Below are positions 2,550-22,196 of a stretch of DNA of 33,978 nt, one piece after another. The notes under the pieces are model-generated. The model was not told where the DNA came from. It ran no database searches and saw only the letters and a program-made list of their open reading frames with translations. A program made the translations under genes and the position numbers. Numbering within the stretch: the stretch's first letter is position 1; each line of letters begins with the position of its first letter. Source of the stretch: an uncultured Bacteroidales bacterium (GTDB lineage Bacteria; Bacteroidota; Bacteroidia; Bacteroidales; P3); NCBI GenBank assembly GCA_947168515.1, contig CAMVMF010000038.1, forward strand, positions 1 through 33,978. Direction: 5' to 3'.

Positions 2550-5500
2550 CTAGCGGACCACTAATTTGCGGACCACGCTGATTTCGTTGCTCGTGATGTG
2601 GACAAAGTAGGTGCCTTGTGACAATCCTTCGACCTGCATTTCCTTGTTGCAGTCGCCGGCGCATTCCATGACCTCGCTACTGACCATGCGGCCATTGATG
2701 TCGACCACAGAAATTTGGACCTTGCCCTCGACACCGCTGACCGAGATGGTAGTGGCTTCGCTGGTGGGGTTAGGATAGATGCTGTATGCAAACCCATCTA
2801 CAACATCGGCTATGCCGACGGCACGAGGAGTACTGAAGGAGAACTGTGTAGACCAGATGCTGCTCACCTCTTCGGTGCATGCCGCCCTGATGTAGACATC
2901 GTAGTCGGTCTCATCTTCCAAGCCAGTGATGGTGTAGGGATGAGAGGTGACGGTGACGGTGGTGCCGCCGCCTTGGGTGAATCCTTGGTAACCGTAAGAA
3001 ATCTCCCAAGTGGACTCCTCGCCATTGACAGTCCAGTCGACAACAGCGGAATGGGCAGTAATGTCGCTGACAGTGACATTAGAGACCGGGGTACAGACAG
3101 GGGTGGTGAAGTTTACGGTCTCGCACCAGTCGCTATAGGTAGTGGCGGAACACATCGACTGCACGGCGACACCATAGGTGACACCCGGTTCCAAGCCGCT
3201 GATGGTGACGGTGGTGCCGTACACCGTGTCGGAGCTGCTGAAGGCACTGTTGGAAATGCTGACCACGTAGGCCACGGAGTTGCCACTGGGATCGGCATTC
3301 CAGTTGATGGTAACGTCTTGGAAGTCAGACTCCACGACATTCAGACCTTCCACCACATAGCAATGGAGCGTATCGGTGACACAGTTGCTGGTAGACCAGA
3401 AGGACAGGGCGGTATCGCTACAAATGCTCCGCACACGATATTCGTAGCGGGTGTTGGGTTCGAGGCTGCTGAAGGTGTAGGTGTGGGCCGTGATACGCGT
3501 GGGCGCGGGCCATGCTTGGTCGGGAGTGCGGACAGATACATCGAAACTGCTGGCAGGGCTGTTCCATGTGACAGTGATGGAAGTGGCCTCGACATTGGCG
3601 TTGGTGAAGACAGGACGAGTGCAGGACTCGGAGCCGTAGACCACCACGCTGTCGAGCAAGATGCCCAAACCGAAACCACTGTGGGCCTTAAAGCCTACCT
3701 GATAGGTGGAAGTGGTGTTGGGGAGCATGACAGTGTCGGCCTGCCAGTTGGTAATGCTGGTGTTCCACGATGCCAGATAGTGCCAAGCAGAATCGGGATG
3801 CACACGGTAGAGGACGGCAAGGGTGTCTTGGTCGGTGCCCCATGCTGGCTGGGCATGGAAGAAGGTCATCATCACCTCGTCGTCGCTCTGGATGTCGAGC
3901 ATGGGCGAAACAAGGGTGGTGGTATAGCCCGAATAGCTATTGACAGAGAAACGGGCATTGTACTGGCCGGTGGCAGCACCTGACATACCGCCGTAGGCAT
4001 TGCCGCCGCGTCCGGTGGTCCAGCCCACATCGCCTACCTGGTAGTTCTGAGACCAGCAGGCAATACCATTCTCGAAATCCTCCACCCAGGGGAAGATGGT
4101 GACGATGCTGTCGCATCCCGTCAGGCAAGTGACCGTGGATGCGAAGCCTGTGTCGGAGGCAGAGCAAATGGGCAGCACAAAAATGTCGTAGGAAGTGGTG
4201 GGGGCCAAGCCCGTAAGGGTGACATGACTATTTGTGGCCAGCAGTCTGGTGCCCATTCCGGTGGTGAAACCAGAGACACCGTATTCGACTATCCAACGAG
4301 TGGCCGAGCCGTCGTCCCAGTCGACATCAATGGTGGAGGCCGAAGAGGAGCTGGCGGTAAGATTGGTCGGGGAAGGACAGGTGATGAGTTCCATGCTGAT
4401 ATTGTCGATGGCGGCAGGGGGATTGGAGCCCATGGCACCGTCGTTAGTCCAGACAATGGTAAGGTAGTAGTTGCCGGCTTGGAGGTCGACGCTGTGCTGG
4501 TCGTACTGCCATGTGTTGCGCAGATTGCGCTTGCCGCCGTCGAGGGCTATCCAGCCAGTGGGCAGGGTGTTGCTGTAGCGGTTGACAGCAGAGAAGGAGG
4601 TGGTAAAGTCATAGTCTTCGGGGACTAAGGCCACGCGCATGAGGTCGTAGCTGCCCTCGCCCTGGCAACGCCAGTTATAGCTGATGGAATAGGAGCTGTC
4701 GTAAGGAACCTGTATATAAGTCATGGCAAAACAAATCGACTGATTGGTATTGGTGTAGGCATTGGTGGTGCCACCGTCGTTGGTGACATACATGCAGTTG
4801 GTGCCACCATTGCTGACGGCGTTGCCGATATACCACCCGTTGGAGCCGATGCGCTGATAGATGGTGAAGGTGTTGGTGCTGTCTTCGAAGTCGTTGAAAT
4901 AGGGCAGGAAGTGGGGGTCGGCAGCCAAGGTGGAGAAATGGGTTGACAGCAAGTCGCTGGTGCCGTTGGGGCAGTTGTTGACCACCCAGACATAATAGCT
5001 GGTGACAGCAGAGAGTCCGGTGAAGCTATAGCTGGTGGTGGCGGCGGTGTCGGTAAGGAAAGCCGACGACAAGTCGTTGGTAGTAGAAATAGAGACAATG
5101 TAGCTGCCATTGCTGCTGGTGTCGGTCCACTGGATGGTGGCCGTTGTCATACCTACGGCACTGACGGCCAAGTTGCTCAGTTCGGCGCAGCCGTTGTTGT
5201 AGTTGAGCGAGAGGTCATCGATATAGAAGCTGCTGTAGCTAGAGCCAACGGTGCGGATGCAGAGGAAACGACAGCTGTCGGGAGCTCCGCTGAGGTCGAC
5301 ACGCATACGTTGCCACTCGCTACCGTCGCCGGTATAGGTGACCGTGTCGAGGGAGACAAAGGTCGACTGGTCGTTCTGATTGCTCAGCACGCCGACCTCT
5401 GCCTGATAGGTATAGCTGGAGGGATAGGGTCCATACATATAGAATTTCAATATCAGAGAGTCCAGACCTTGCATCTCTGGCAGAGCCAGCCAGCAGTTAT

Positions 5501-8500
5501 AGTAGGGGTACATATACATGCTGTTGCTGCCGCCCTCGGTGTGGTTGTTGTAGGTATAAAGGTAGGGATAGGAGCTGTAAGTGCTGCTACTGCCACGGCT
5601 CCAGCACTGCTGTATGGGAGAGCCGGTAGAGCTGCTGGCCACGAAGTTCTCGAAGTCCTCGCTCCAGGGGAAAGTGGAAACAACGTCGCAAGCGGTGGTG
5701 AAATGGGTAATATTGGCATCGCTCAGGCCGAAAGGACAAATGGAGTGGACAAAGATGTAGTATTCCGTGGCGGCGGTGAGACCCGTGAAGGTGTGACTGG
5801 TAGAGGTGGTGACAACAGAGTCGAAAGCGGCTGTCTCGTCGTTGGAGGTGGCAATGTATAGCTTATAACTGCCCACAGCAGCGGTGTCGGTCCAAGAAAG
5901 GGTAACGCTGTTGGTGCCGAAGGAGTCGATGTGGAGGTTGCGCACCGAGTCGCAGGCATTGGGAATATAGAGCACAAAGTCGTCCAAGAAAACAGTGAAA
6001 CGGCCACTCTTAACAGCCCTGAAGGCCACACGGTTGCCATTTCCGCTATAGCTGATGAGCACATTTTTCTTGACATAGGAGTAGAGGCTGTTGCAGTCGG
6101 AAATATCGATAGTGTCGATTGGCTGGAAATCAGAGTCGTTGGTCAGGACACCAAGTTCCAGCACCGTGGGGGCATAGGAGGAAGTAGTGGCGATATAAAA
6201 CTCTAGAGCCAGACCGTCGATAGTGTCGAACGCAGGCAGTGCGAAGATTTCGGTACCGCCATTGGAGGCCTCCATCTCAAAGTAGACATTGCCAGTGCGG
6301 GCATTGCTGCTGTAGTTGTAGCAGCTGGGGAAGGTGCCGCTGCCGCTGGTGCCTGTGGCAGTGCGGATCCAGCAGTTGGGCATGTCGCCCGTTTGATAGC
6401 CCTCAAAGCCCTCCACCAAAGGCAGCGAGCTGCGAGACATGGTGGCACATGCCGTGCGGGCCGAGACATGGCCGTAGGGCACATTGGCACTGCCGGGGCA
6501 GAGGCTACCCACGCGGAAGTCGTAAAGCACATTGGCACTGAGGCCGGTGACCACCGAGGTCTGGGATGTGGTGGCACTCTCTGCCACCGTCCAACTGGTG
6601 TCGGTGGCGGGTTTGTATTCCACCGTCCAGCTGCTTTCACTCATACCGGGTACCCAAGCCAGCGTGACGCTGTTGGCCGCAGCACCAGCAACCGAGACAT
6701 TAGGAGCCACGCAGCTGGCATCGCCACAGGGGGAGACGAAAACCACATTGGGGCGGGAGCTGGAGGAACTGATGGACGTTGGGGAAGCGGGGTCGATGTT
6801 GGTACCATCGCTATACTGATACAGCACGGTGCCCGTCAGTCCGCTGGTTGACTGCCAATTGGTAGTGCTGTAATAGGTTCCCGTGTTGTTATCGATGGTG
6901 ATGACAATGTTGCTGGTGGTGTTGGGACGGACCCAGGGGGTGTCGAAGGTGAACTCGTTTTCACCCGTCTGGAAGGTACGTGTGGCCGAATAGACCCGCT
7001 TGGTGGAATCCATGACGATGGGGGTGCCGCTGAGGCTGCTGGCAGAGGTGGTGTCGATATAGATGTCTATGTCGAAGCTGCCAGAGGAGGCACTGGTGGA
7101 GGTGAACTTGAGACCGAAGACGGTGTCTAAGAGGTTGTTCAACTCGCTGGCCTGGAAAAGTATCTGGCTGAAACTGTAGCGGTAGTAGGTGTTCAAGGGA
7201 GAGTTAGCCGTGGTGCTGGTACCGTCACCCACATGGACTTCGCCACCAACAAAGCAGATGGTGGTGAAATAAAGGCCCACGGGGTTGCTGACCTCGCTGG
7301 CGGAGCAGTTGGCGGTGACGGAAACATAGTAGGTGGTGGTTTGGTTCAAACCGCTGACCAAAAAACTACGCACGCTGTCGGCCACAGTGTAGCTGGAGGA
7401 TGTGCCAGCAGCCGTATCGGTGACGGTGATGGTGAAGCCCTCGGGGGTGGCAGTGGTGCTGTAGTTCCATGTCACCTGGGCCGAGCCGCCGGCTATGTCG
7501 CTCACGCTTACGTCGTAAGGGTCGAGACAGGAGGGCAGGTCGTAGCAACTTACCGTCAGGGCAAAGCCAGCAGAGCTATTGTAGGAAGCTGTTTGGAACT
7601 CGATGGTAAGGGGACCCTCGGTAGAAGCCACATTGACGCTGTCGTCGGTGGTGATGTCGCAGAGCTGACGACCAGAGGTACCTACACCATCATATATTTT
7701 CAAGTGAGACACATAGTAGGAGCTATAGTAGATATTGGCATAGCCGCTCAGCCGCACAGCCTGGGTGTTGTCGGTTGGATAAACCACCAGATAGGATGTT
7801 TGGCTGTTGGAATAGTTGCCGCTCAGGCCACCGTCGTCGGTGATGGTACCACCACACATCTGCACGGTGTCGGTCTGGTTGGCCGCCATCACATACAGGT
7901 TGGGACGGGCGGTGACAGGTCCTACCCAGTAACTCTGTTCGCCACCACAGTTGGCGCGGAGGTAGAAATCATAGGTGAGCGAGTCGGCCAACCCTGAGAC
8001 TGTGCCATAGGAGTCATAGAAAGTGACGGTGTTGGTCATCACGGTGTCGGGATTCATGCCCACGGGGCCGTAGACCACTTCCCACTCGTTGGCATTGGTG
8101 TCGCTCCAAGACAGGTCCATGGTGCCAGAAGCCGTACCGGTGGTATGGAAACCCCATGGCAACTGACAGTTGCGGACGGTACGGATAGTGATATTGTCGA
8201 GATAGATAGCGTAATAGTTGCTACTGGGACAGAACTTGCGGTAGACAATGTAGCCCATGTCGGTTGTGGGCAGGTCGGCAAAACTGACCGAATACTCGGC
8301 CCAGCTGTCGGTGATGTCGAAGGTGTCCAGCATGACGGCATTGGCTATGGAGTCGAGGCTGGTGACGTAGCCCACGGCCACATGGACGGTGTAGTAGTTG
8401 TAGGACTTCTTGGCCCAGAAACGGGTCTCAAAGGTGTTGATGGGGGCATACAGATAGGGTGAAGCAATGGAGACGGTACTGCTGTTGCTGCCCATATTCA

Positions 8501-9446
8501 GGGCGCTGCTGCCATCCAACCCCTGTCCATTGGAGATGGAAGGATAGCTGCCGCTGGGTTCGGTGATGTTCCAGCAGCTGGGGAAGCTGACATCGTAGCC
8601 CTCCATAGTCTCGACCAAAGGAAAGACCGGCATGCCACAGCTGGTTCGGAAACTGAAATATACTCCCTCGCTGGTGTCGTTGCCAGTACAGTTGTTGTAG
8701 AGGTAGCCCGAATACAATGTGTTGGGTTCTAGACCACTGAAGCTATAGCTGTTGGTGGAAGGATAGTACCAGGTACTGTCGTTGTTGAGATAGAGGAGAT
8801 AGCCAGCCGACACAGTGGCGGCAGCCCAACTGAGGGAGGCGCTATTGCTGTCGACCGTGGCACTGACGTTGCCAGGCAGATAGGCGCAGCTGGGAGCGTT
8901 GGAGATGGTCATGTCGTCAATGAATACCGTGTAGGTGCCCGAGCCGGTGTAGGTGGCGCGGAAACCGATGCGGTGGCCTGGGCCGCTATAGTCCACCAGA
9001 TAGACACGGCAGGGCTGGTAGCTGCCTGAATAGGAGGAGCCTAGGATGGTGTCGACAGGCACAAAGGTGGAGTCTTCCATCACGCCTATTTCCAAGGTGG
9101 TATGGCTGTAGTCGTTCAGGAAACGGATATAGAAATCCAACATCAGGTTGGACGGATTGGCAAACTCAGGCGTGGCACACAACTCTGTCACACCGGTGTT
9201 GCTCTCCAATTCAAAGTAATAGCTGCCCGTACGCGCGTTGGGCGCATACTGGTAGCAGCAGGGAAAAACGCTGGACGCTCCGGATGAGCCAATCAAATAG
9301 TTCACCCAGCCCGTTGGCAGATGAGTAGTGGCATCAGGATTCTCAAATCCTTCGCTATACGGCACCGACTGATAAGACTGCGCCATGACTGTCATGGGCA
9401 GCAGCAATGCCACAAGCAATAAAACTTTTTTTATAATTTCATTCAT
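2550..9446 (-). CDS. Giant modular fibronectin-III/jelly-roll surface protein with T9SS sorting domain
   Basis: About 2298 residues. I chose the ATG at 9446 because a clear signal peptide starts there (MNEIIKK, then a Leu/Val core ending VMAQ); an upstream in-frame Met at 9488 would add 14 residues before it. By eye the protein alternates about six MAM/cleaved-adhesin-like jelly-roll modules (each with an xFPxxExFE-type start and an xxIDDxxI-type end) with about ten fibronectin type III modules (GL-xxxT-Y patterns). It also has one CUB-like module around residues 535-645 (CGGTITDDGG, then HLKIYDGVG) and one module opening with GDGTSTT. The last roughly 85 residues form a type A T9SS sorting domain (YPNPTSEATTISVSG to the terminal RKLVVR). 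It is therefore expected to be exported, cleaved and attached to the surface or secreted. An adhesive or substrate-binding role is inferred; no catalytic domain was recognised. Confidence 0.88.
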   Translation of the reverse strand: MNEIIKKVLLLVALLLPMTVMAQSYQSVPYSEGFENPDATTHLPTGWVNYLIGSSGASSVFPCCYQYAPNARTGSYYFELESNTGVTELCATPEFANPSNLMLDFYIRFLNDYSHTTLEIGVMEDSTFVPVDTILGSSYSGSYQPCRVYLVDYSGPGHRIGFRATYTGSGTYTVFIDDMTISNAPSCAYLPGNVSATVDSNSASLSWAAATVSAGYLLYLNNDSTWYYPSTNSYSFSGLEPNTLYSGYLYNNCTGNDTSEGVYFSFRTSCGMPVFPLVETMEGYDVSFPSCWNITEPSGSYPSISNGQGLDGSSALNMGSNSSTVSIASPYLYAPINTFETRFWAKKSYNYYTVHVAVGYVTSLDSIANAVMLDTFDITDSWAEYSVSFADLPTTDMGYIVYRKFCPSSNYYAIYLDNITIRTVRNCQLPWGFHTTGTASGTMDLSWSDTNANEWEVVYGPVGMNPDTVMTNTVTFYDSYGTVSGLADSLTYDFYLRANCGGEQSYWVGPVTARPNLYVMAANQTDTVQMCGGTITDDGGLSGNYSNSQTSYLVVYPTDNTQAVRLSGYANIYYSSYYVSHLKIYDGVGTSGRQLCDITTDDSVNVASTEGPLTIEFQTASYNSSAGFALTVSCYDLPSCLDPYDVSVSDIAGGSAQVTWNYSTTATPEGFTITVTDTAAGTSSSYTVADSVRSFLVSGLNQTTTYYVSVTANCSASEVSNPVGLYFTTICFVGGEVHVGDGTSTTANSPLNTYYRYSFSQILFQASELNNLLDTVFGLKFTSTSASSGSFDIDIYIDTTSASSLSGTPIVMDSTKRVYSATRTFQTGENEFTFDTPWVRPNTTSNIVITIDNNTGTYYSTTNWQSTSGLTGTVLYQYSDGTNIDPASPTSISSSSSRPNVVFVSPCGDASCVAPNVSVAGAAANSVTLAWVPGMSESSWTVEYKPATDTSWTVAESATTSQTSVVTGLSANVLYDFRVGSLCPGSANVPYGHVSARTACATMSRSSLPLVEGFEGYQTGDMPNCWIRTATGTSGSGTFPSCYNYSSNARTGNVYFEMEASNGGTEIFALPAFDTIDGLALEFYIATTSSYAPTVLELGVLTNDSDFQPIDTIDISDCNSLYSYVKKNVLISYSGNGNRVAFRAVKSGRFTVFLDDFVLYIPNACDSVRNLHIDSFGTNSVTLSWTDTAAVGSYKLYIATSNDETAAFDSVVTTSTSHTFTGLTAATEYYIFVHSICPFGLSDANITHFTTACDVVSTFPWSEDFENFVASSSTGSPIQQCWSRGSSSTYSSYPYLYTYNNHTEGGSNSMYMYPYYNCWLALPEMQGLDSLILKFYMYGPYPSSYTYQAEVGVLSNQNDQSTFVSLDTVTYTGDGSEWQRMRVDLSGAPDSCRFLCIRTVGSSYSSFYIDDLSLNYNNGCAELSNLAVSAVGMTTATIQWTDTSSNGSYIVSISTTNDLSSAFLTDTAATTSYSFTGLSAVTSYYVWVVNNCPNGTSDLLSTHFSTLAADPHFLPYFNDFEDSTNTFTIYQRIGSNGWYIGNAVSNGGTNCMYVTNDGGTTNAYTNTNQSICFAMTYIQVPYDSSYSISYNWRCQGEGSYDLMRVALVPEDYDFTTSFSAVNRYSNTLPTGWIALDGGKRNLRNTWQYDQHSVDLQAGNYYLTIVWTNDGAMGSNPPAAIDNISMELITCPSPTNLTASSSSASTIDVDWDDGSATRWIVEYGVSGFTTGMGTRLLATNSHVTLTGLAPTTSYDIFVLPICSASDTGFASTVTCLTGCDSIVTIFPWVEDFENGIACWSQNYQVGDVGWTTGRGGNAYGGMSGAATGQYNARFSVNSYSGYTTTLVSPMLDIQSDDEVMMTFFHAQPAWGTDQDTLAVLYRVHPDSAWHYLASWNTSITNWQADTVMLPNTTSTYQVGFKAHSGFGLGILLDSVVVYGSESCTRPVFTNANVEATSITVTWNSPASSFDVSVRTPDQAWPAPTRITAHTYTFSSLEPNTRYEYRVRSICSDTALSFWSTSNCVTDTLHCYVVEGLNVVESDFQDVTINWNADPSGNSVAYVVSISNSAFSSSDTVYGTTVTISGLEPGVTYGVAVQSMCSATTYSDWCETVNFTTPVCTPVSNVTVSDITAHSAVVDWTVNGEESTWEISYGYQGFTQGGGTTVTVTSHPYTITGLEDETDYDVYIRAACTEEVSSIWSTQFSFSTPRAVGIADVVDGFAYSIYPNPTSEATTISVSGVEGKVQISVVDINGRMVSSEVMECAGDCNKEMQVEGLSQGTYFVHITSNEISVVRKLVVR

Positions 9447-9487
9447 AATTGCTATCTTTATCTGAAAAGACCATACTATATGGCACA

Positions 9488-11182
9488 TTATCTAACACTG
9501 AACTTGCGTGCCACATTTATTGTTTCATTATACAATCTCACCAAGTAAGTCCCCTTGGCCAAGCCGTCCACATCGATAACCATCTCGCAATCGGAGGGAC
9601 ATTCTTTGACGAAACTTTGGACCGTGCGGCCATCCAAGCCGATGACGGTCACATTCACGCGGCCTTCGACACCGCTCACGCTGATGGTGGTGCGGGTGTC
9701 GGCAGGATTGGGATAGACCGATACACGCAAACCGTCGGCATCTTCTATGCCCTGCTGCTGTTCCTGACCGGTGGTGAACATGACATTGGTGTACTCGCTA
9801 TAGCGGTTGTCGGCACATAGGCTGCGCACCTTGGCCATATAGCTTGTGTTGGCATTGAGGTTGGTCAACGTGGCCTGGGGCGTGCCGCTCACTTGCAGCA
9901 GGCCTAACTCCTGCCCGTCGACAAAGCCGGGCAAGCCATAAACGACCTCCCATTCGGCACCCTCATTGGCATTGTCGGACCAGGAGATAACGGCTTCATG
10001 GACGGTGGGGGCGGCGGTTACATTACTCACCACAAAACAGCTGCTGGTGGTCACCATCATAGTGTCGCTCCAAATGGAGGTGCTGTTAGCATCACACATC
10101 GAGCGCACAGAGACGCGGTAGTTGGTACCATAGCTGAGACCGGTAACGGTGTAGCTGTTGGTATTGGCGGTAAAAGTGCGGTTGTAGCCGCTGTTGAAGA
10201 CATGCACTTCCCACGAGGTAGCCGTACCCACGGCAGTCCAAGTGAAGGTGGCAGTGGTGTTGGTGATGTCGCTCAGTATCACGTCCTGAGGCATACGGCA
10301 GTGTTCGGCATCGGTAACGAAATAAACGGTGTCGGACCAATCGCTATAGCCATTGTATGCCAGAGAGCAGTCCTGACGTATACGCGCCATATAACGGGTC
10401 TCAGGCAAGAGCACATTACTCAAGGTCAAGAAGCAACCCGTAGCGTTGACCAAAGTCCAGCTGCTGTCGTCGACGGCCTTATATTCAAACTCGACATGGC
10501 CTGAGTGGTACTGGTTCCAGTTGAAAGAAGCCGACATGTCGCTAATGTTATAAACGCGCAGGTCGTGGGGTACCATGCAGTGGTCGTTGAAGTCAAAAAC
10601 CAGGCTGTCGATGGCTAGGAAGTTGACCCCCGAAGACATGATGGGACAGGACTTGAAACAGAAATAACGTCCGGTGTCGTTGTAGGCGGCAAAGTCGACA
10701 GTGAAACGCGCCATGGTGTCGGGAGAGCAGTATGGAATGGCCAGCAAGGTGTCCAAGGGAACAAAGTTGGCATCACTGGGATTGGTAGGATTGGTGGTGA
10801 TGCCGATAATCAGGTCGGAGTTGTGCGATGGACTGGTGCTGGACTTGCCGGCGCTGAAGGTCACCTGCAGATGGCTGATGTCCAGCGACTCTGCAAAAGG
10901 ATTCTGCAACACAGCCCAAGTGACACCCGTGCTGTAGAGGTCCAGGATGCAGGTCATATAGCCGTCATGGACATTGTACTGGCCGATGGAAGGCTCGTTG
11001 GTGCCCTGGAAATGCCAGCAGAAAGGCTCCGTCGGCGGAGTGGTGTTGTGGGGATAGGCCTGGAAGTCTTCCCACCAAGGCAGATTTCTGATGCTGTCGC
11101 AGGGTTTGTCCTGCGCATCCACCACCCTAGGCAAAGCCAAAAGCGTGGCACAAAGGATAAAAAATAGTAGTTTTTTTCTCAT
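9488..11182 (-). CDS. Fibronectin type III surface protein with T9SS sorting domain
   Basis: A 564-residue protein with signal peptide MRKKLLFFILC...VDAQ. It has a jelly-roll/MAM-like module (about residues 25-200), three fibronectin type III modules (about 200-480) and a C-terminal T9SS type A sorting domain (VYPNPADTRTTISVSG to the terminal FSVR). It is a shorter relative of the 2298-residue protein encoded 41 bases downstream, and both sorting domains share the decapeptide TTISVSGVEG and an EC-x2-DC cysteine pair. The two genes look like one operon, with this gene first. T9SS export is inferred from the sorting domain, since no secretion-machinery gene is in the window. No enzymatic motif was seen, so an adhesin or scaffold role is a guess. 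Confidence 0.85.
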   Translation of the reverse strand: MRKKLLFFILCATLLALPRVVDAQDKPCDSIRNLPWWEDFQAYPHNTTPPTEPFCWHFQGTNEPSIGQYNVHDGYMTCILDLYSTGVTWAVLQNPFAESLDISHLQVTFSAGKSSTSPSHNSDLIIGITTNPTNPSDANFVPLDTLLAIPYCSPDTMARFTVDFAAYNDTGRYFCFKSCPIMSSGVNFLAIDSLVFDFNDHCMVPHDLRVYNISDMSASFNWNQYHSGHVEFEYKAVDDSSWTLVNATGCFLTLSNVLLPETRYMARIRQDCSLAYNGYSDWSDTVYFVTDAEHCRMPQDVILSDITNTTATFTWTAVGTATSWEVHVFNSGYNRTFTANTNSYTVTGLSYGTNYRVSVRSMCDANSTSIWSDTMMVTTSSCFVVSNVTAAPTVHEAVISWSDNANEGAEWEVVYGLPGFVDGQELGLLQVSGTPQATLTNLNANTSYMAKVRSLCADNRYSEYTNVMFTTGQEQQQGIEDADGLRVSVYPNPADTRTTISVSGVEGRVNVTVIGLDGRTVQSFVKECPSDCEMVIDVDGLAKGTYLVRLYNETINVARKFSVR

Positions 11183-15199: not shown

Positions 15200-15396
15200 T
15201 TGCATGGCCACTCGACACCCTGCTCAAATCGCAACTATTCACGTCATTTAAGAATCTAATTAGACAGGATTTATCGCATTTCGATAGGGCTGAGGCAGGA
15301 GATAGACCTTTGTCACTTGGGGGCATCTTGTCAAATTTGCCTCATAGATACAATAATTCTTCCCCTGCCACGTTATGTCATGAAAATAATGGAGCT

Positions 15397-16392
15397 ATGA
15401 GTATCTCAGATTCACAAGAACGTTACGTCAACTTCTACACCGATTTTGCCTTCAAGAAACTCTTCGGCACCGAGGCCAACAAGGAGCTGCTGATCAGCTT
15501 CCTTAACTCCATGTTCGACGGAAGGGAGGAGGTCTTGGACCTTGAGTACCTCAACGTGGAGCATCTGGGACCCTCAGCCGTGGAGCGCAAGGCGGTCTTC
15601 GATGTCTACTGTCGCAACAGCCAGGGCGACCGCTTCCTCATCGAGATGCAGAAGGCCGACCAGAACTACTTCAAGGACCGCAGCATCTACTACTCCACAT
15701 TCCCTATACAGGAGCAGGCCGTCAGGGGCGACTGGAACTTCCGGCTGGACAAGGTCTACACCATCGGCATACTCAACTTCACCTTCGACGACGACCCTGA
15801 GTACTTCCACCACGAGGTCAAGCTGGTGGACGTGAAAAAGAAAAACGTCTTCTACGACAAGTTGACTTATATCTATTTGGAAATGCCCAAATTCCATAAG
15901 AGCGAGGACGAATTGGAGACCCTTTTCGACAAGTGGCTCTATGCGATGAAGAACTTGGGCCGTCTGATGGAGCGTCCGCAAGCGTTGCAGGATGCCGTCT
16001 TCACCCGCTTGTTCGAGCAGGCCGAGATAGCCAAGTTCAGCCCCACGGAGCAGCGCGGCTACCGCGAGAGTCAAAAAGACTTCTGGGACCTTTTCAGCGT
16101 CAAGGAGACAGCGGAAATGAAAGGTCATGCCAGAGGCTTGGAAGAAGGCTTGGCCAAAGGCATGAAAGAAGGGCTGGCTAAAGGCATGAAAGAAGGGCTG
16201 GCTAAAGGCAAGGCTGAAGGTATCGAAGAAGGCCTGGCTAAAGGCAAGGCTGAAGGTATCGAAGAAGGGCTGGCTAAAGGTGAGAAACGCAAGGCTTACC
16301 AGATAGCCAGAAGTTTAAAATCATTAGGTCTCCCTCTAGAGACGATTGTTCAGACTACGGGACTGTCCCAGGAAGAAATAGACAGACTGTAA
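15397..16392 (+). CDS. Rpn family PD-(D/E)XK nuclease, copy 1
   Basis: 331 residues, started at the ATG at 15397 because the paralogue at 16593 begins at the equivalent MxISDSQERYVN; an in-frame upstream Met at 15310 has no counterpart there. It belongs to the Rpn / PDDEXK_2 'family transposase' group. The nuclease core is visible: FDVYC with D69, then IEMQ with E83 and Q85 (D...E-x-Q). Residues 90-235 complete the family domain (RSIYYS, YTIGILNF, KLTYIYLEMPKF). From about 247 the protein turns into tetrad repeats (EEGL-AKGM-KEGL), then a conserved tail ending SQEEIDRL. E. coli Rpn proteins cut DNA and have been reported as anti-phage toxins held in check by a separately translated C-terminal fragment. 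A matching internal start is present here. No consensus promoter was recognised upstream. Confidence 0.87.
   Translation: MSISDSQERYVNFYTDFAFKKLFGTEANKELLISFLNSMFDGREEVLDLEYLNVEHLGPSAVERKAVFDVYCRNSQGDRFLIEMQKADQNYFKDRSIYYSTFPIQEQAVRGDWNFRLDKVYTIGILNFTFDDDPEYFHHEVKLVDVKKKNVFYDKLTYIYLEMPKFHKSEDELETLFDKWLYAMKNLGRLMERPQALQDAVFTRLFEQAEIAKFSPTEQRGYRESQKDFWDLFSVKETAEMKGHARGLEEGLAKGMKEGLAKGMKEGLAKGKAEGIEEGLAKGKAEGIEEGLAKGEKRKAYQIARSLKSLGLPLETIVQTTGLSQEEIDRL
16117..16392 (+). CDS. Candidate gene-within-gene: C-terminal Rpn fragment, copy 1
   Basis: An in-frame ATG at codon 241 of Rpn copy 1 is preceded by AAGGAGA (16102-16108) at a good Shine-Dalgarno distance, 8 bases from the ATG. It would give a 91-residue protein (MKGHARGLEE...) containing only the tetrad-repeat helix and the conserved tail, without the nuclease core. 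This mirrors the RpnS antitoxins reported inside E. coli rpn genes. AAG-GAG also simply encodes Lys-Glu, so translation here is inferred, not shown. Confidence 0.45.
   Translation: MKGHARGLEEGLAKGMKEGLAKGMKEGLAKGKAEGIEEGLAKGKAEGIEEGLAKGEKRKAYQIARSLKSLGLPLETIVQTTGLSQEEIDRL
16132..16284 (+). repeat. In-frame tetrad-codon repeat array in Rpn copy 1
   Basis: Twelve-base units coding for four residues of the types EEGL, AKGM, KEGL, AKGK and AEGI are repeated in tandem. A 24-base unit encoding MKEGLAKG is perfectly duplicated near 16162-16209, and a 36-base unit encoding KAEGIEEGLAKG is duplicated, with a single-base difference, at about 16210-16281. Slippage or recombination could change the repeat number without a frameshift. 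Confidence 0.85.
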
Positions 16393-16592
16393 TCCTCCCC
16401 TATCGCATCACAAGAGGTCGCGTCCCTTGTCCGTATATATCAGCTTCGCGTTATAGAATAATTGCAATAAAATCCGTGCAATCCGCATGATTTATGTGTG
16501 GTTGATGAAGTCCAGGGAACTGACGAATTACACAGATTTACTGGCAATACAATATTTCTGATTTCTCCTCGTTATTAATAAAAATTGCTGCT

Positions 16593-17552
16593 ATGGGTAT
16601 TTCTGATTCTCAAGAACGTTACGTCAACTTCTACACCGATTTTGCCTTCAAGAAACTCTTCGGCACCGAGGCCAACAAGGAGCTGCTGATCAGTTTCCTC
16701 AACTCCATGTTCGACGGAAGGGAGGAGGTTTCTGACCTTGAGTACCTCAACGTGGAGCATCAGGGGCCTTCCGCCGTGGAGCGCAAGGCGGTCTTCGATG
16801 TCTACTGTCGCAACAGCCAGGGCGACCGCTTCCTCATCGAGATGCAGAAGGCCGACCAGAACTACTTCAAGGACCGCAGCATCTACTACTCCACATTCCC
16901 TATACAGGAGCAGGCCGTCAGGGGCGAATGGAACTTCCGACTGGACAAGGTCTACACCATCGGCATCCTCAACTTCACCTTCGACGACGACCCGGAGTAC
17001 TTCCACCACGAGGTCAAGCTGGTGGACGTTAAAAAGAAAAACGTCTTCTACGACAAGCTGACCTACATTTATCTGGAGATGCCCAAGTTCCACAAGAGCG
17101 AGGATGAGCTGGAGACCCTTTTCGACAAATGGCTCTACGCGATGAAGAACCTGGGCCGATTAATGGAGCGTCCGCAGGTGCTGCAGGATGCCGTTTTCAC
17201 GCGTCTCTTCGAGCAGGCCGAGATAGCCAAATTCAGCCCTACGGAGCAACGCGGCTACCGCGAGAGTCAAAAGGACTTCTGGGACCTTTTCAGCGTCAAG
17301 GAGACAGCGGAAATGAAAGGTCATGCCAGAGGACTGGAAGAAGGACTGGCTAAAGGTAAGGCCGAAGGACTGGCTAAAGGTAAGGCCGAAGGCTTGGAAG
17401 AAGGGCTGGCTAAAGGTATCGAAGAAGGGCTGGCTAAAGGTGAGAAACGTAAGGCCTGCCAGATAGCCCAGAGCTTAAAATCATTAGGTCTCCCTCTAGA
17501 GACGATTGTTCAGACTACGGGACTGTCCCAGGAAGAAATAGACAGACTGTAG
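16593..17552 (+). CDS. Rpn family PD-(D/E)XK nuclease, copy 2
   Basis: 319 residues, a tandem paralogue of the gene ending 200 bases upstream. The nuclease core residues D69, E83 and Q85 are at the same positions. Only a handful of amino-acid changes separate the two copies over the first 240 residues (for example LDLE/SDLE, HLG/HQG, GDWN/GEWN, QAL/QVL), while many synonymous sites differ in patches. The C-terminal repeat array is shorter and differently ordered, and the last 77 coding bases are identical to copy 1. The start has no Shine-Dalgarno (AAATTGCTGCTATG). Both copies are intact, which argues that both are used. Function as for copy 1: probable toxic or anti-phage DNA nuclease, by family. 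Confidence 0.87.
   Translation: MGISDSQERYVNFYTDFAFKKLFGTEANKELLISFLNSMFDGREEVSDLEYLNVEHQGPSAVERKAVFDVYCRNSQGDRFLIEMQKADQNYFKDRSIYYSTFPIQEQAVRGEWNFRLDKVYTIGILNFTFDDDPEYFHHEVKLVDVKKKNVFYDKLTYIYLEMPKFHKSEDELETLFDKWLYAMKNLGRLMERPQVLQDAVFTRLFEQAEIAKFSPTEQRGYRESQKDFWDLFSVKETAEMKGHARGLEEGLAKGKAEGLAKGKAEGLEEGLAKGIEEGLAKGEKRKACQIAQSLKSLGLPLETIVQTTGLSQEEIDRL
17313..17552 (+). CDS. Candidate gene-within-gene: C-terminal Rpn fragment, copy 2
   Basis: The same internal arrangement as in copy 1: AAGGAGA at 17298-17304, then an in-frame ATG at codon 241. The product would be 79 residues, made of the repeat helix and the tail. The site is identical in both paralogues although flanking synonymous sites differ elsewhere. 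Separate translation is inferred. Confidence 0.45.
   Translation: MKGHARGLEEGLAKGKAEGLAKGKAEGLEEGLAKGIEEGLAKGEKRKACQIAQSLKSLGLPLETIVQTTGLSQEEIDRL
17328..17442 (+). repeat. In-frame tetrad-codon repeat array in Rpn copy 2
   Basis: Twelve-base units encode EEGL, AKGK, AEGL, EEGL, AKGI and so on. A 24-base unit encoding KAEGLAKG is directly repeated near 17344-17391. The array has fewer units than that of copy 1, which shows that the number varies between paralogues. Confidence 0.82.
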
Positions 17553-19608: not shown

Positions 19609-21015
19609 ATGGCAAATATTATTAATATAAAAAAAGGCCTTGACCTGCCGATAGATGGCTCTGCCGAGCTGAGGACCACCGATGCTCGTACAATAGCCAC
19701 CTACGCCCTAAAGCCTACCGACTATGTCGGCCTAGTGCCGCGCCTGTTGGTATCGGAGGGCGACACGGTGAAAGCGGGCGATGTGCTGTTCTGCGACAAG
19801 AAGAACGAGCGCATTCGTTTCTGTGCCCCTGTGGCAGGCCGTGTAAAGGCCATAGTGAGAGGTGCCAAACGCCTCTTGCTGGCCGTGGTGGTAGAGAAAG
19901 ACGAAAACGCAGCAGTCAGCCCCCTGCCCAAAGCAGAGAACCCACGGGAGCAAATGCTCCAATGCGGTTTGTGGACTATGCTGCGCCAACGTCCTTTCGG
20001 CACCGTGGCCAATCCCGATGACAATCCCAAAGCCATTGTGGTGAGTTGCTTCGACAGCGCCCCTCTAGCCCCGGACTACGACTACCTGCTGCAAGGGCGT
20101 GAAGACGATTTTGCCCACGGCGTGGAAGCACTGGCTTCGCTGACACAAGGCAAGTTGCACCTCTGTTTCCGCAATGGTCAGAAACTGATGGACAAAGTGG
20201 CCCATACCCAGGCTAAGAATGTGGAGTTGCACATCGTTAATGGCCCCCACCCTGCTGGTAACGTGGGTACCCAGATTGCACAAATCTGCCCCATCAACAA
20301 AGGCGAGGTGGTGTGGACCATGAACCCACAGGACATAGCCACCCTAGGCCATTTGGCTACCACGGGTGTCTATAGCCCCGAACGCGTGGTTGCTGTTGCA
20401 GGCCCACAGATCAAGAATCCCCACTACTACCGCACATACATGGGTGCCTGCGTAGAGACCTTAGTGGCTGGGCAAGCCAGCAACAGCGGATATCCCAAAT
20501 TGGAAAGCTCCGCTAGCATGAACGGTAGCCGACTTATCAGCGGCAACGTACTCAGTGGCACACAGATCGACGCAAACGGTTACGTTGGCGGATACGACAG
20601 TTTGCTGAGCATACTGCCCGAGGGCAACTACTACGACTTTATGGGATGGCTGATGCCGGGTCTAAGAAAGTTCAGCTTCAGCCGCACCTTCCTCAGCGGC
20701 TTCTTTGCCAAATGCAAGAAAGCCCAGCAAATGCTGCCCAGCTGTACCAAACCCATCTTCGACACCAACACCCACGGCGAAGTGCGCCCCTTTGTTTTCA
20801 CAGGCAACTTCGAACAAGTGTTCCCCTTCGACATTTATCCTCTCCAACTCATCAAAGCCTGCATCATTGGCGACATGGAACTCCAAGAGAACCTAGGCAT
20901 CTATGAAGTAGAACCCGAGGACTTTGCCCTGTGCGAATTTATTGACACATCTAAGACTGACATCCAGCCCATCATCCGTGAGGCACTGGAGACATTAAGA
21001 AAGGAGGCCATGTGA
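19609..21015 (+). CDS. nqrA: Na+-translocating NADH:quinone reductase subunit A
   Basis: 468 residues, started at the ATG at 19609 because MANIINIKKGLDLPIDG is the canonical NqrA start; an in-frame Met 20 codons upstream lies inside the leader hairpin region. NqrA is the cytoplasmic subunit of the Na+-NQR complex, which oxidises NADH, reduces quinone and pumps Na+ outwards. It is the first gene of a complete, tightly packed nqrABCDEF operon: its TGA shares one base with the nqrB ATG. The leader contains a long hairpin, and a separate promoter was not found, so read-through from aspA is possible. Confidence 0.95.
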   Translation: MANIINIKKGLDLPIDGSAELRTTDARTIATYALKPTDYVGLVPRLLVSEGDTVKAGDVLFCDKKNERIRFCAPVAGRVKAIVRGAKRLLLAVVVEKDENAAVSPLPKAENPREQMLQCGLWTMLRQRPFGTVANPDDNPKAIVVSCFDSAPLAPDYDYLLQGREDDFAHGVEALASLTQGKLHLCFRNGQKLMDKVAHTQAKNVELHIVNGPHPAGNVGTQIAQICPINKGEVVWTMNPQDIATLGHLATTGVYSPERVVAVAGPQIKNPHYYRTYMGACVETLVAGQASNSGYPKLESSASMNGSRLISGNVLSGTQIDANGYVGGYDSLLSILPEGNYYDFMGWLMPGLRKFSFSRTFLSGFFAKCKKAQQMLPSCTKPIFDTNTHGEVRPFVFTGNFEQVFPFDIYPLQLIKACIIGDMELQENLGIYEVEPEDFALCEFIDTSKTDIQPIIREALETLRKEAM

Positions 21016-22196
21016 TGCAAATGAATGGTTTAAGAAACTTTATCGATAAAATCAAACCCACCTTCAGCGAGGGCGGCAAACTGAGCTGGCTCTCTCAGAC
21101 TTTTGGAGGTTTTGAAACCTTTGCCTTCACACCCAACAAAGTAACCCAGCGAGGCAGCCACGTGCGCGATGCCGTAGACATGAAACGCGCTATGATTACC
21201 GTGGTTATCGCTTTGGTGCCCGCCATGCTCTTTGGCATGTGGAACATCGGATACCAAACTTCTGAGGCCCGTATGGCCATGGGACTGGAAGGTTTTGGCT
21301 GGTGGTATTGCCTGTGGTTTGGATTTGTACGCATGCTGCCCATGCTTGTGGTCAGTTATGTGGTTGGACTTGGCATCGAGTTCACCTATGCCCAAATTCG
21401 CGGCCACGAGGTTTATGAAGGCTATCTAGTCTCTGGTTTCATCATACCGATGATAGTGCCTGTCACCACCCCCCTGTGGCAGCTGGCACTGGCCGTGGCC
21501 TTTGCCGTCATCTTTGCCAAAGAAGTGTTCGGCGGCACCGGCATGAACTTCCTGAATCCAGCCCTGGTGGCACGTGCCTTTTTATTCTTCAGCTATCCCA
21601 CACACATGTCGGGAGACAAGGTGTGGATTGCTGCTGACAGGTGGGGCAGCGATGCTCTGACAGGTGCCACTCCTATGGGAGACCTGGCTACGGGTCTGAA
21701 ACCTCAGGCCTCTGCCTTGGACATGATTATCGGCACCATCCCTGGCAGCACATGCGAGACCTCGGTCATCGCCATTGCACTGGGAGCTCTCATCCTGCTG
21801 ATCAGCGGTATTGCTAGTTGGCGCACCATGTTGGCCGTTTTTGTGGGCGGTGGAGCCATGGGGCTGCTGTTCAATGCCATCGGAGCCAACGAATACATGC
21901 AGCTGCCCTTCTATTACCACTTCATCATGGGTGGTTTCGCTTTCGGTGCCGTTTTCATGGCCACCGACCCCGTCACCAGTGCCCAGACCAATTGTGGTAA
22001 ATGGATCTACGGCATCCTGATAGGGGCTTTCGCCGTGCTGCTGCGCGTGCTGAATCCCGCCTATCCGGAAGGCATGATGTTAAGCATTCTACTGATGAAC
22101 TGTTTTGCTCCATTGATTGACCACTGCATCATCCAGCAGAACATCAAAAAACGCCAGCGCCGTGCGTTGGCAGAAGGAAAGGAGGTGAAAGCATGA
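21015..22196 (+). CDS. nqrB: Na+-NQR subunit B
   Basis: 393 residues from the ATG at 21015, which overlaps the nqrA stop by one base (TGATG) and has AAGGAGG (21001-21007) 7 bases ahead; a GTG three bases upstream is also in frame. It is an integral membrane subunit with about ten hydrophobic segments. The covalent FMN attachment motif is visible as LTGATP at 215-220, with T219 as acceptor. NqrB carries FMN and riboflavin and forms part of the Na+ path and quinone site. The TGA overlaps the nqrC start (ATGA), so translation is probably coupled. Confidence 0.96.
   Translation: MQMNGLRNFIDKIKPTFSEGGKLSWLSQTFGGFETFAFTPNKVTQRGSHVRDAVDMKRAMITVVIALVPAMLFGMWNIGYQTSEARMAMGLEGFGWWYCLWFGFVRMLPMLVVSYVVGLGIEFTYAQIRGHEVYEGYLVSGFIIPMIVPVTTPLWQLALAVAFAVIFAKEVFGGTGMNFLNPALVARAFLFFSYPTHMSGDKVWIAADRWGSDALTGATPMGDLATGLKPQASALDMIIGTIPGSTCETSVIAIALGALILLISGIASWRTMLAVFVGGGAMGLLFNAIGANEYMQLPFYYHFIMGGFAFGAVFMATDPVTSAQTNCGKWIYGILIGAFAVLLRVLNPAYPEGMMLSILLMNCFAPLIDHCIIQQNIKKRQRRALAEGKEVKA

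Follow-up and report, generated by a model that had tools for sequence, protein, structure and literature searches.

Tandem genes for predicted Rpn family nucleases in a Bacteroidales genome and candidate separate antitoxin genes in related bacteria

Tandem rpn genes of the window and their copies in the same genome

The window analysed here, a whole stretch of 33,978 nucleotides (nt) of contig CAMVMF010000038.1 from an uncultured Bacteroidales bacterium (assembly GCA_947168515.1), contains two tandem genes on the plus strand that code for full-length, RpnL-like proteins of the Rpn nuclease family: copy 1 (15397..16392), which codes for 331 amino acids (aa) and has a start scoring like the genome's real starts, and copy 2 (16593..17552), an open reading frame of 319 aa with three four-residue repeats (tetrads) fewer than copy 1. 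In line with the initial annotation, which had assigned the tandem genes to the Rpn family, profile searches matched both copies to PF12784 (aa 14–239) and TIGR01784 above the curated cut-offs, and the Pfam span places the PD-(D/E)XK nuclease domain at 15436..16113 in copy 1 and at 16632..17309 in copy 2 (plus strand). Residues D69, E83 and Q85, which we take to be the PD-(D/E)XK catalytic residues, are kept in both copies, as had been noted, and are invariant across a 76-row alignment of full-length proteins; M241 is likewise present in both copies. Judged by their sequences, the window copies are predicted DNA-cutting PD-(D/E)XK nucleases of the Rpn family.

The predicted structure of copy 2 contains one helix spanning aa 216–297. 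This long tetrad-repeat helix and the tail behind it make up an RpnS-like unit, which extends over aa 216–319 in copy 2 (17238..17549, plus strand) and, with the boundary transferred from the predicted helix of copy 2, over aa 216–331 in copy 1 (16042..16389, plus strand), and which matches the separate S genes described below. The likeness of helix and tail to RpnS of Escherichia coli that had been pointed out for this pair holds: in a sequence search the C-terminal tail of copy 2 weakly matched E. coli RpnA-S of known structure (PDB 7TH0, E = 0.008), and a profile of S proteins matched the same entry with E = 2.4e-4, six unrelated repetitive or designed chains ranking higher.

The genome to which the window belongs (3.26 Mb, 112 contigs, 93% complete) contains seven near-identical full rpn copies on five contigs, namely the window pair, a tandem pair on contig C29 and single copies on C13, C15 and C85, as well as two distant rpn relatives (C3 and C36). 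The intergenic stretches of the window pair and the C29 pair are homologous (65% over 197 nt, E = 2e-7), so the two tandem pairs likely descend from one array, in agreement with the local duplication proposed in the initial annotation. A leader of about 45 nt ahead of the start codon is common to 7/7 copies (15349..15396 for copy 1 and 16548..16592 for copy 2, plus strand) and the sequence farther upstream mostly diverges; the 3' flanks differ among the seven copies, except between the two tandem intergenic stretches. Since all seven copies carry this leader (approximate consensus TACAATA..CGTTAT..AAAATAAT..ATG), a common regulation is suggested. A scan of the window for TAnnTTTG, which we take to be a promoter motif, found the exact motif in neither the rpn genes nor their leaders, and no more often in the window than chance predicts, and we therefore regard a promoter role of the leader as putative.

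Within the first 240 codons any two of the seven copies differ by 24–78 nt and by only 0–5 residues, and the pooled ratio of nonsynonymous to synonymous divergence (omega) is 0.015 over 21 pairs that are not independent of each other, a sign of strong purifying selection on the nuclease core. Between copies, 2–16 of the last 34 residues differ, with a pooled synonymous divergence (dS) of 1.9 compared to 0.43 in the core. As the synonymous divergence of the tails far exceeds that of the core, tails and core differ in their history, and recombination within the repeats is the probable cause. The number of four-residue repeats differs among the seven copies: six have a length of 315 + 4k aa (k = 0, 1, 2, 4, 6, 7), and the C85 copy has 315 + 16 plus one residue. 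Copies 1 and 2 of the window have tails that differ at 2 of 34 residues and lengths that differ by exactly three tetrads.

A further, C-terminal rpn fragment was found on contig C19 of the same genome (G000:C19, locus L021, ~1887–2264). It is decayed, begins with MFTRLFEQAE, has lost the tail and reads KETAEKKG at the site of codon 241. It presumably runs into the end of an IS30-like transposase, downstream of a tRNA-like stretch.

The putative internal start at codon 241

The initial annotation had proposed a gene within a gene, in which a small antitoxin is translated from an in-frame ATG at codon 241 (16117..16119 in copy 1, 17313..17315 in copy 2) behind a Shine-Dalgarno (SD) sequence, AAGGAGA (16102..16108 and 17298..17304; all plus strand). 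The ATG and the motif are present in the sequence, and the products would indeed comprise 91 and 79 aa. To place them in context, we used 400 kb of the same genome to compare 198 first-ATG starts with 1810 in-frame internal ATGs. Pairing to the anti-SD was weaker at the real starts than at internal ATGs (mean −0.36 versus −3.08 kcal/mol), and AAGGAG preceded 1/198 starts and 12/1810 internal ATGs (internal count: positions −18 to −4), so that the motif before codon 241 does not go beyond chance. Starts in this genome avoid SD pairing, and SDs are rarely used. Twenty candidate starts that overlap the end of an upstream gene had a mean of −1.9 kcal/mol with 20% at −6 or below, similar to the 17% of internal ATGs. 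PMC9976891 reports that ribosomes of Bacteroidia do not recognise SDs, the 16S tail being sequestered.

In a position model of the genome's own starts (cross-validated area under the curve 0.94), which learns A-richness, limited by coding, and is hence biased against any internal start, copy 1 scored 5.6, copy 2 8.96 and codon 241 −6.62, a value that 50.6% of internal ATGs reach or surpass. The absence of an SD at the full-length start of copy 2 had been correctly observed, but starts without SD are normal here, and copy 2 outscores copy 1. The motif itself is predicted by codon use, in agreement with the caveat already made that AAG GAG is ordinary Lys-Glu coding: in the first 240 codons of the seven copies, Lys is AAG in 106/133 and Glu is GAG in 128/164 cases, and the sole other Lys-Glu pair (codons 29–30) also reads AAGGAG in 4/7 copies. 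We therefore consider AAGGAGA before codon 241 likely to be ordinary Lys-Glu coding. Codons 236–240, which hold the putative ribosome-binding site, vary between the seven copies at 0.39 versus 0.21 for the gene (89th percentile of five-codon windows), a further point against a start.

Free variation of the internal ATG and its motif in a conserved protein had been named beforehand as the observation that would speak against internal initiation, and this is what the homologues display. In an alignment of the 120 nearest database proteins among the matches listed with the two window copies, the codon-241 position holds M in 8/122 and K in 55/122 proteins; among 124 unique homologous genes with DNA, ATG occurs at this codon in two, neither with an SD, and a relative from the same genus (G013, locus L022) reads TQTAENKG. 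The internal start that had been called conserved thus is not conserved outside this genome. An in-frame start with an SD core lies within aa 213–250 in 9/124 homologues, compared to 29, 4, 8, 2 and 9 of 124 in five control windows of equal size. An ATG in aligned column 236 (44/124 homologues) was tried as an alternative internal start and rejected, the density of start plus SD at aa 230–244 not being raised. M241 also lies 25 residues inside the helix predicted for aa 216–297, at whose start a YxxSxK block is found, and E. coli M244, the internal start of RpnA, aligns with F233 of the window copies and not with M241 (one low-similarity alignment).

Strong SDs do occur in the window, at nqrB, nqrC and nqrD (−10.9, −16.8 and −12.7 kcal/mol; 21012–21017, 22193 and 22992), as the initial annotation had seen for the first two. 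As a positive control, these SDs are kept in a relative of the same genus (G007, locus L232; NqrC 74% identical), and at the other eight loci examined the strongest SD site within the first 70 codons is weaker or lies off the apparent start. They possibly reflect SD-dependent coupling or regulation in a Bacteroidales. For the rpn copies, these sequence tests, with the rarity of SD use, a codon 241 unlike the genome's starts and the freely varying codons before it, do not support an internal start with a ribosome-binding site at codon 241; initiation there without an SD would be conceivable.

Separate RpnS-like genes in Bacteroidales relatives

In Bacteroidales relatives, separate RpnS-like genes were found in which the start peptide of the native Rpn protein continues in frame into the C-terminal unit. 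Frames with an uncut 5' end, no nuclease core and at most 260 aa were taken as candidates; among 16 such frames listed, nine mid-contig genes were counted as separate S genes (L048, L108, L125, L145, L147, L161, L164, L166 and L223). By record name they come from six assemblies, with L108, L161 and L164 sharing one and L125 and L147 another. In the order-level search 9 of 10 places with short frames were examined, and the filter was passed by L223 and L226 only. When the 84-aa S protein of L108 was used as query, 28 S-sized database proteins were obtained at E ≤ 1e-5, 24 of which were examined; the C-terminal 103 aa of the window protein retrieved 140 proteins at E ≤ 1e-6, several among the matches listed being marked 'partial' or lying on short contigs.

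The start peptide and the unit (here separated by a slash) are joined, for example, as MNTS/NFTAEEQYDYRES, MGISESQE/AIFERLF, MGISESQERYVNFYTDFAFKK/ELHDYRES, MRELTSHERYANF/SLEERRDYRES, MNELTHERYANFYTDF/SLAERRDYRES, MSETRYINPYTDFGFKKLF/EQAEIA and MIMGTSTLQE/QYDYRES. About ten different junctions were counted by eye, all of them upstream of the codon-241 position. Most S genes have a recognisable Rpn start peptide; L145 has none, P0137 and P0144 are ambiguous, and for MDLSTKR/ISNQAEIA the native peptide is uncertain. The Y, E, S, K, F, W and V of YRESQKDFW....V are kept in 17/17 aligned S proteins. The YxxSxK block sits about 20 residues before the codon-241 position, and Y222, S225, K227 and D231 are invariant in the 76 full-length rows.

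Five of the nine S genes, from four assemblies, lie downstream of a full-length rpn gene (L) and on its strand, at distances of 14 (L108), 46 (L145), 12 (L125), 12 (L147) and 555 nt (L048). Compared with full-length genes of other loci, the S tail was nearest to that of the adjacent L gene in 4/5 cases. Two pairs of S genes, each consisting of paralogues within one assembly, showed purifying selection (L108/L161, omega 0.10 at dS 0.46; L125/L147, omega 0.18 at dS 0.63). The S gene of L108 retains the last bases of the L leader, and the leader of L161 is much like that of the L108 full-length gene. On account of this position, tail match, selection and leader, together with the work on E. coli, neutralisation of the nuclease by the Bacteroidales S genes can be proposed, and these separate nuclease-deleted genes are likely antitoxins.

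Other short frames were set aside. Many S-like frames in genomes of the same family had been considered as separate antitoxin genes, and 17 of the 20 examined run off the contig end. L214 is a truncated distant type, L217 a broken copy and L218 a fusion; in L156 the nuclease is removed only in part, L162 consists of two frames with a frameshift, and the frame of L226 looks like a truncated rpn gene. At L217 (G184:C10), one relative carries two broken rpn copies about 3 kb apart, one of them with internal stops.

Proposed origin of the putative antitoxin and comparison with known systems

With a probability of roughly 60%, we favour the reading that the window holds two full-length Rpn (PF12784) genes in which ATG-241 and AAGGAGA are likely ordinary coding sequence, and that the RpnS-like antitoxin of relatives likely comes from separate genes that have lost the nuclease. 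Several observations weigh against it. The 93% complete genome, the window included, yielded no separate S gene that is intact, only the decayed C19 remnant, and the separate-antitoxin part of the reading therefore rests on the loci of relatives and not on the two copies of the window. Among the S-sized database proteins, 2 of the 24 examined (P0131 and P0133) seem to be full-length genes cut short, and many come from short contigs. L125 and L147, which stand outside the 17-protein alignment, keep the segment with Y and S of YxxSxK changed (by eye); the S tail of L147 (1/5) does not match its neighbour best, and both omega pairs, as said, are paralogous. The structure models of copy 2 are of moderate confidence (best predicted local distance difference test (pLDDT) score 76.9, the other four 54.7–65.2), and a Foldseek search of the PDB with this model gave no match at E ≤ 0.001, the weak top matches including the restriction-endonuclease-like entries EndoMS, XisH type and EcoO109I. 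On the side of the internal start, the bias of the start model counts here too, M241 is present in 7/7 copies of this genome with AAGGAG in 6/7 and AAAGAG in one, and according to PMC9976891 a few ribosomal genes, including rpsR in Bacteroidales, are exceptional in having strong SDs; together with those of nqrB–D, these imply that SDs may work in special cases.

Initiation at codon 241 in the copies of this genome, as a recent and lineage-confined source of a small antitoxin like that of E. coli, appears unlikely. It would explain the retention of M241 and of the motif, E. coli rpnA and rpnE carry AAGGAG before the internal ATG, nqrB–D demonstrate that strong SDs occur in this genome, and RpnS from an internal start is shown for E. 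coli and a C. difficile gene in PMC10327210; yet start context, SD avoidance, synonymous variability and poor conservation all argue against it, and a protein started at codon 241 would have its N-terminus within a helix predicted to be continuous, without the YxxSxK block of the aligned S proteins. Somewhat easier to entertain, if still rather improbable, is the view that there is no antitoxin at all, the full-length Rpn being silenced by transcription or by self-association of its C-terminal helix until infection or DNA damage activates it, with the S genes of relatives optional. The lack of an intact S gene in this genome, the conserved leader that each copy has of its own and the strong purifying selection on the core would fit; against this, the separate S genes of relatives are under purifying selection, most with tails that match the neighbour, and E. 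coli RpnL without RpnS inhibits growth, as stated in PMC10327210.

Two further possibilities concern the nature of the genes themselves. The short S-like genes might be decaying rpn fragments without function, as many short matches are contig-end truncations, the deletion product at L162 is frameshifted and L156 lost only part of the nuclease; we hold this to be very unlikely, given a frame that is intact through about ten different junctions, omega values of 0.10 and 0.18 at dS 0.46 and 0.63, and a native start peptide kept in most genes (in L108 and L161 with native leader sequence as well). Least probable, with hardly any weight in our estimate, is a transposase or other mobile element, to which the family name 'putative transposase' and the spread of seven copies over five contigs could point. 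Only the 5' leader is common to all copies and the 3' flanks differ except for the two tandem intergenic stretches (no systematic search for terminal repeats or target duplications was made), and PMC10327210 notes that the E. coli work found neither terminal repeats nor target duplications.

Under the favoured reading of separate nuclease-deleted antitoxin genes, the full-length protein would be a predicted PD-(D/E)XK nuclease whose long C-terminal helix (aa 216–297) and tail form a pairing surface. A separate C-terminal unit would pair with it via the helix, the number of tetrads fixing the register, and would hold the nuclease inactive in the manner of E. coli RpnS; a separate S protein modelled alone gave low confidence (pLDDT 57.7). 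Such pairs may arise when a gene is duplicated in tandem and one of the two copies then loses its nuclease domain in frame, and the twin array of the window could represent the stage before the deletion, one in-frame deletion away from an L-S pair. We put forward only tentatively, as somewhat less than an even chance, the wider proposal that in Bacteroidales, whose ribosomes ignore SDs, the gene-within-gene antitoxin of Rpn has been replaced by repeated in-frame nuclease loss in tandem copies, which would leave the native promoter and start on a tetrad-repeat antitoxin and let repeat number and tail set the target nuclease.

The closest known systems are RpnL-RpnS of E. coli RpnA-E and RpnP2 (Zhong et al. 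2023, PMC10327210), which have TIGR01784 and a PD-(D/E)XK-type nuclease domain in common with the window copies. They also have a C-terminal unit with four-residue repeats of varying number, and the tail of RpnA-S (7TH0) is similar in sequence to that of the window copies. The Pfam families differ (PF04754 for E. coli RpnA, PF12784 here), and the internal start is supported in E. coli, whereas that of the window copies is not. Separate rpnS genes exist in E. coli as well (ypaA/rpnES after rpnE, and rpnCS in some strains), with S just downstream of L as in the Bacteroidales loci; K-12 ypaA, which its record flags as a pseudogene, lies 12 nt after rpnE, compared to the Bacteroidales gaps of 12, 12, 14, 46 and 555 nt. 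The coding sequence of ypaA begins with the Met of the internal start, whose SD is repeated there; most Bacteroidales S genes instead open with an Rpn start peptide, which an in-frame deletion of the nuclease has joined to a unit that begins about 20 residues ahead of the codon-241 position. The same preprint reports that one extra repeat in RpnC-S abolishes neutralisation of an unmatched partner, that the number of tetrads varies in Bacteroides fragilis and that rpnS also exists as separate genes, part of them annotated as DUF4351. Relative to the Bacteroidales proteins named PF12784 PDDEXK_2 or 'Rpn family recombination-promoting nuclease/putative transposase', which match over the full aa 14–239 and have catalytic residues invariant in 76 rows, the window copies differ only in repeat number and tail.

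Bacteroidia are largely without SD-driven starts and the known Rpn mechanism needs an internal start, so a different source of antitoxin would be expected; the separate nuclease-deleted genes are a candidate for it among Bacteroidales Rpn. If this is true, a toxin family generates its own antitoxins by simple deletion within duplicates. The more interesting observation lies outside the window, in Bacteroidales relatives where, to judge by the sequences, deletion of the nuclease seems to have given rise to separate S genes again and again. Bacteroidales RpnS-like genes made by in-frame nuclease deletion are apparently new here: in the open-access literature on the Rpn mechanism (Zhong et al. 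2023, PMC10327210, in its accessible part) such genes were not found. An S boundary at about aa 216–222 is proposed for a large and little-characterised family of gut Bacteroidales proteins, with at least 7777 relatives at E ≤ 1e-60 among the matches listed.

The idea that the pair is a defence locus was not borne out by PADLOC, which assigned no family to copy 1, copy 2 or 10 other window proteins. The Rpn copies matched five phage records (identity at most 35%) and 127 plasmid records, all below 60% identity and mostly from Priestia, the best being a Bacteroides faecis plasmid (52%). Elsewhere in the window, the minus strand at 2550–11182 codes for what we take to be two large proteins with fibronectin-like repeats and a C-terminal sorting-like domain.

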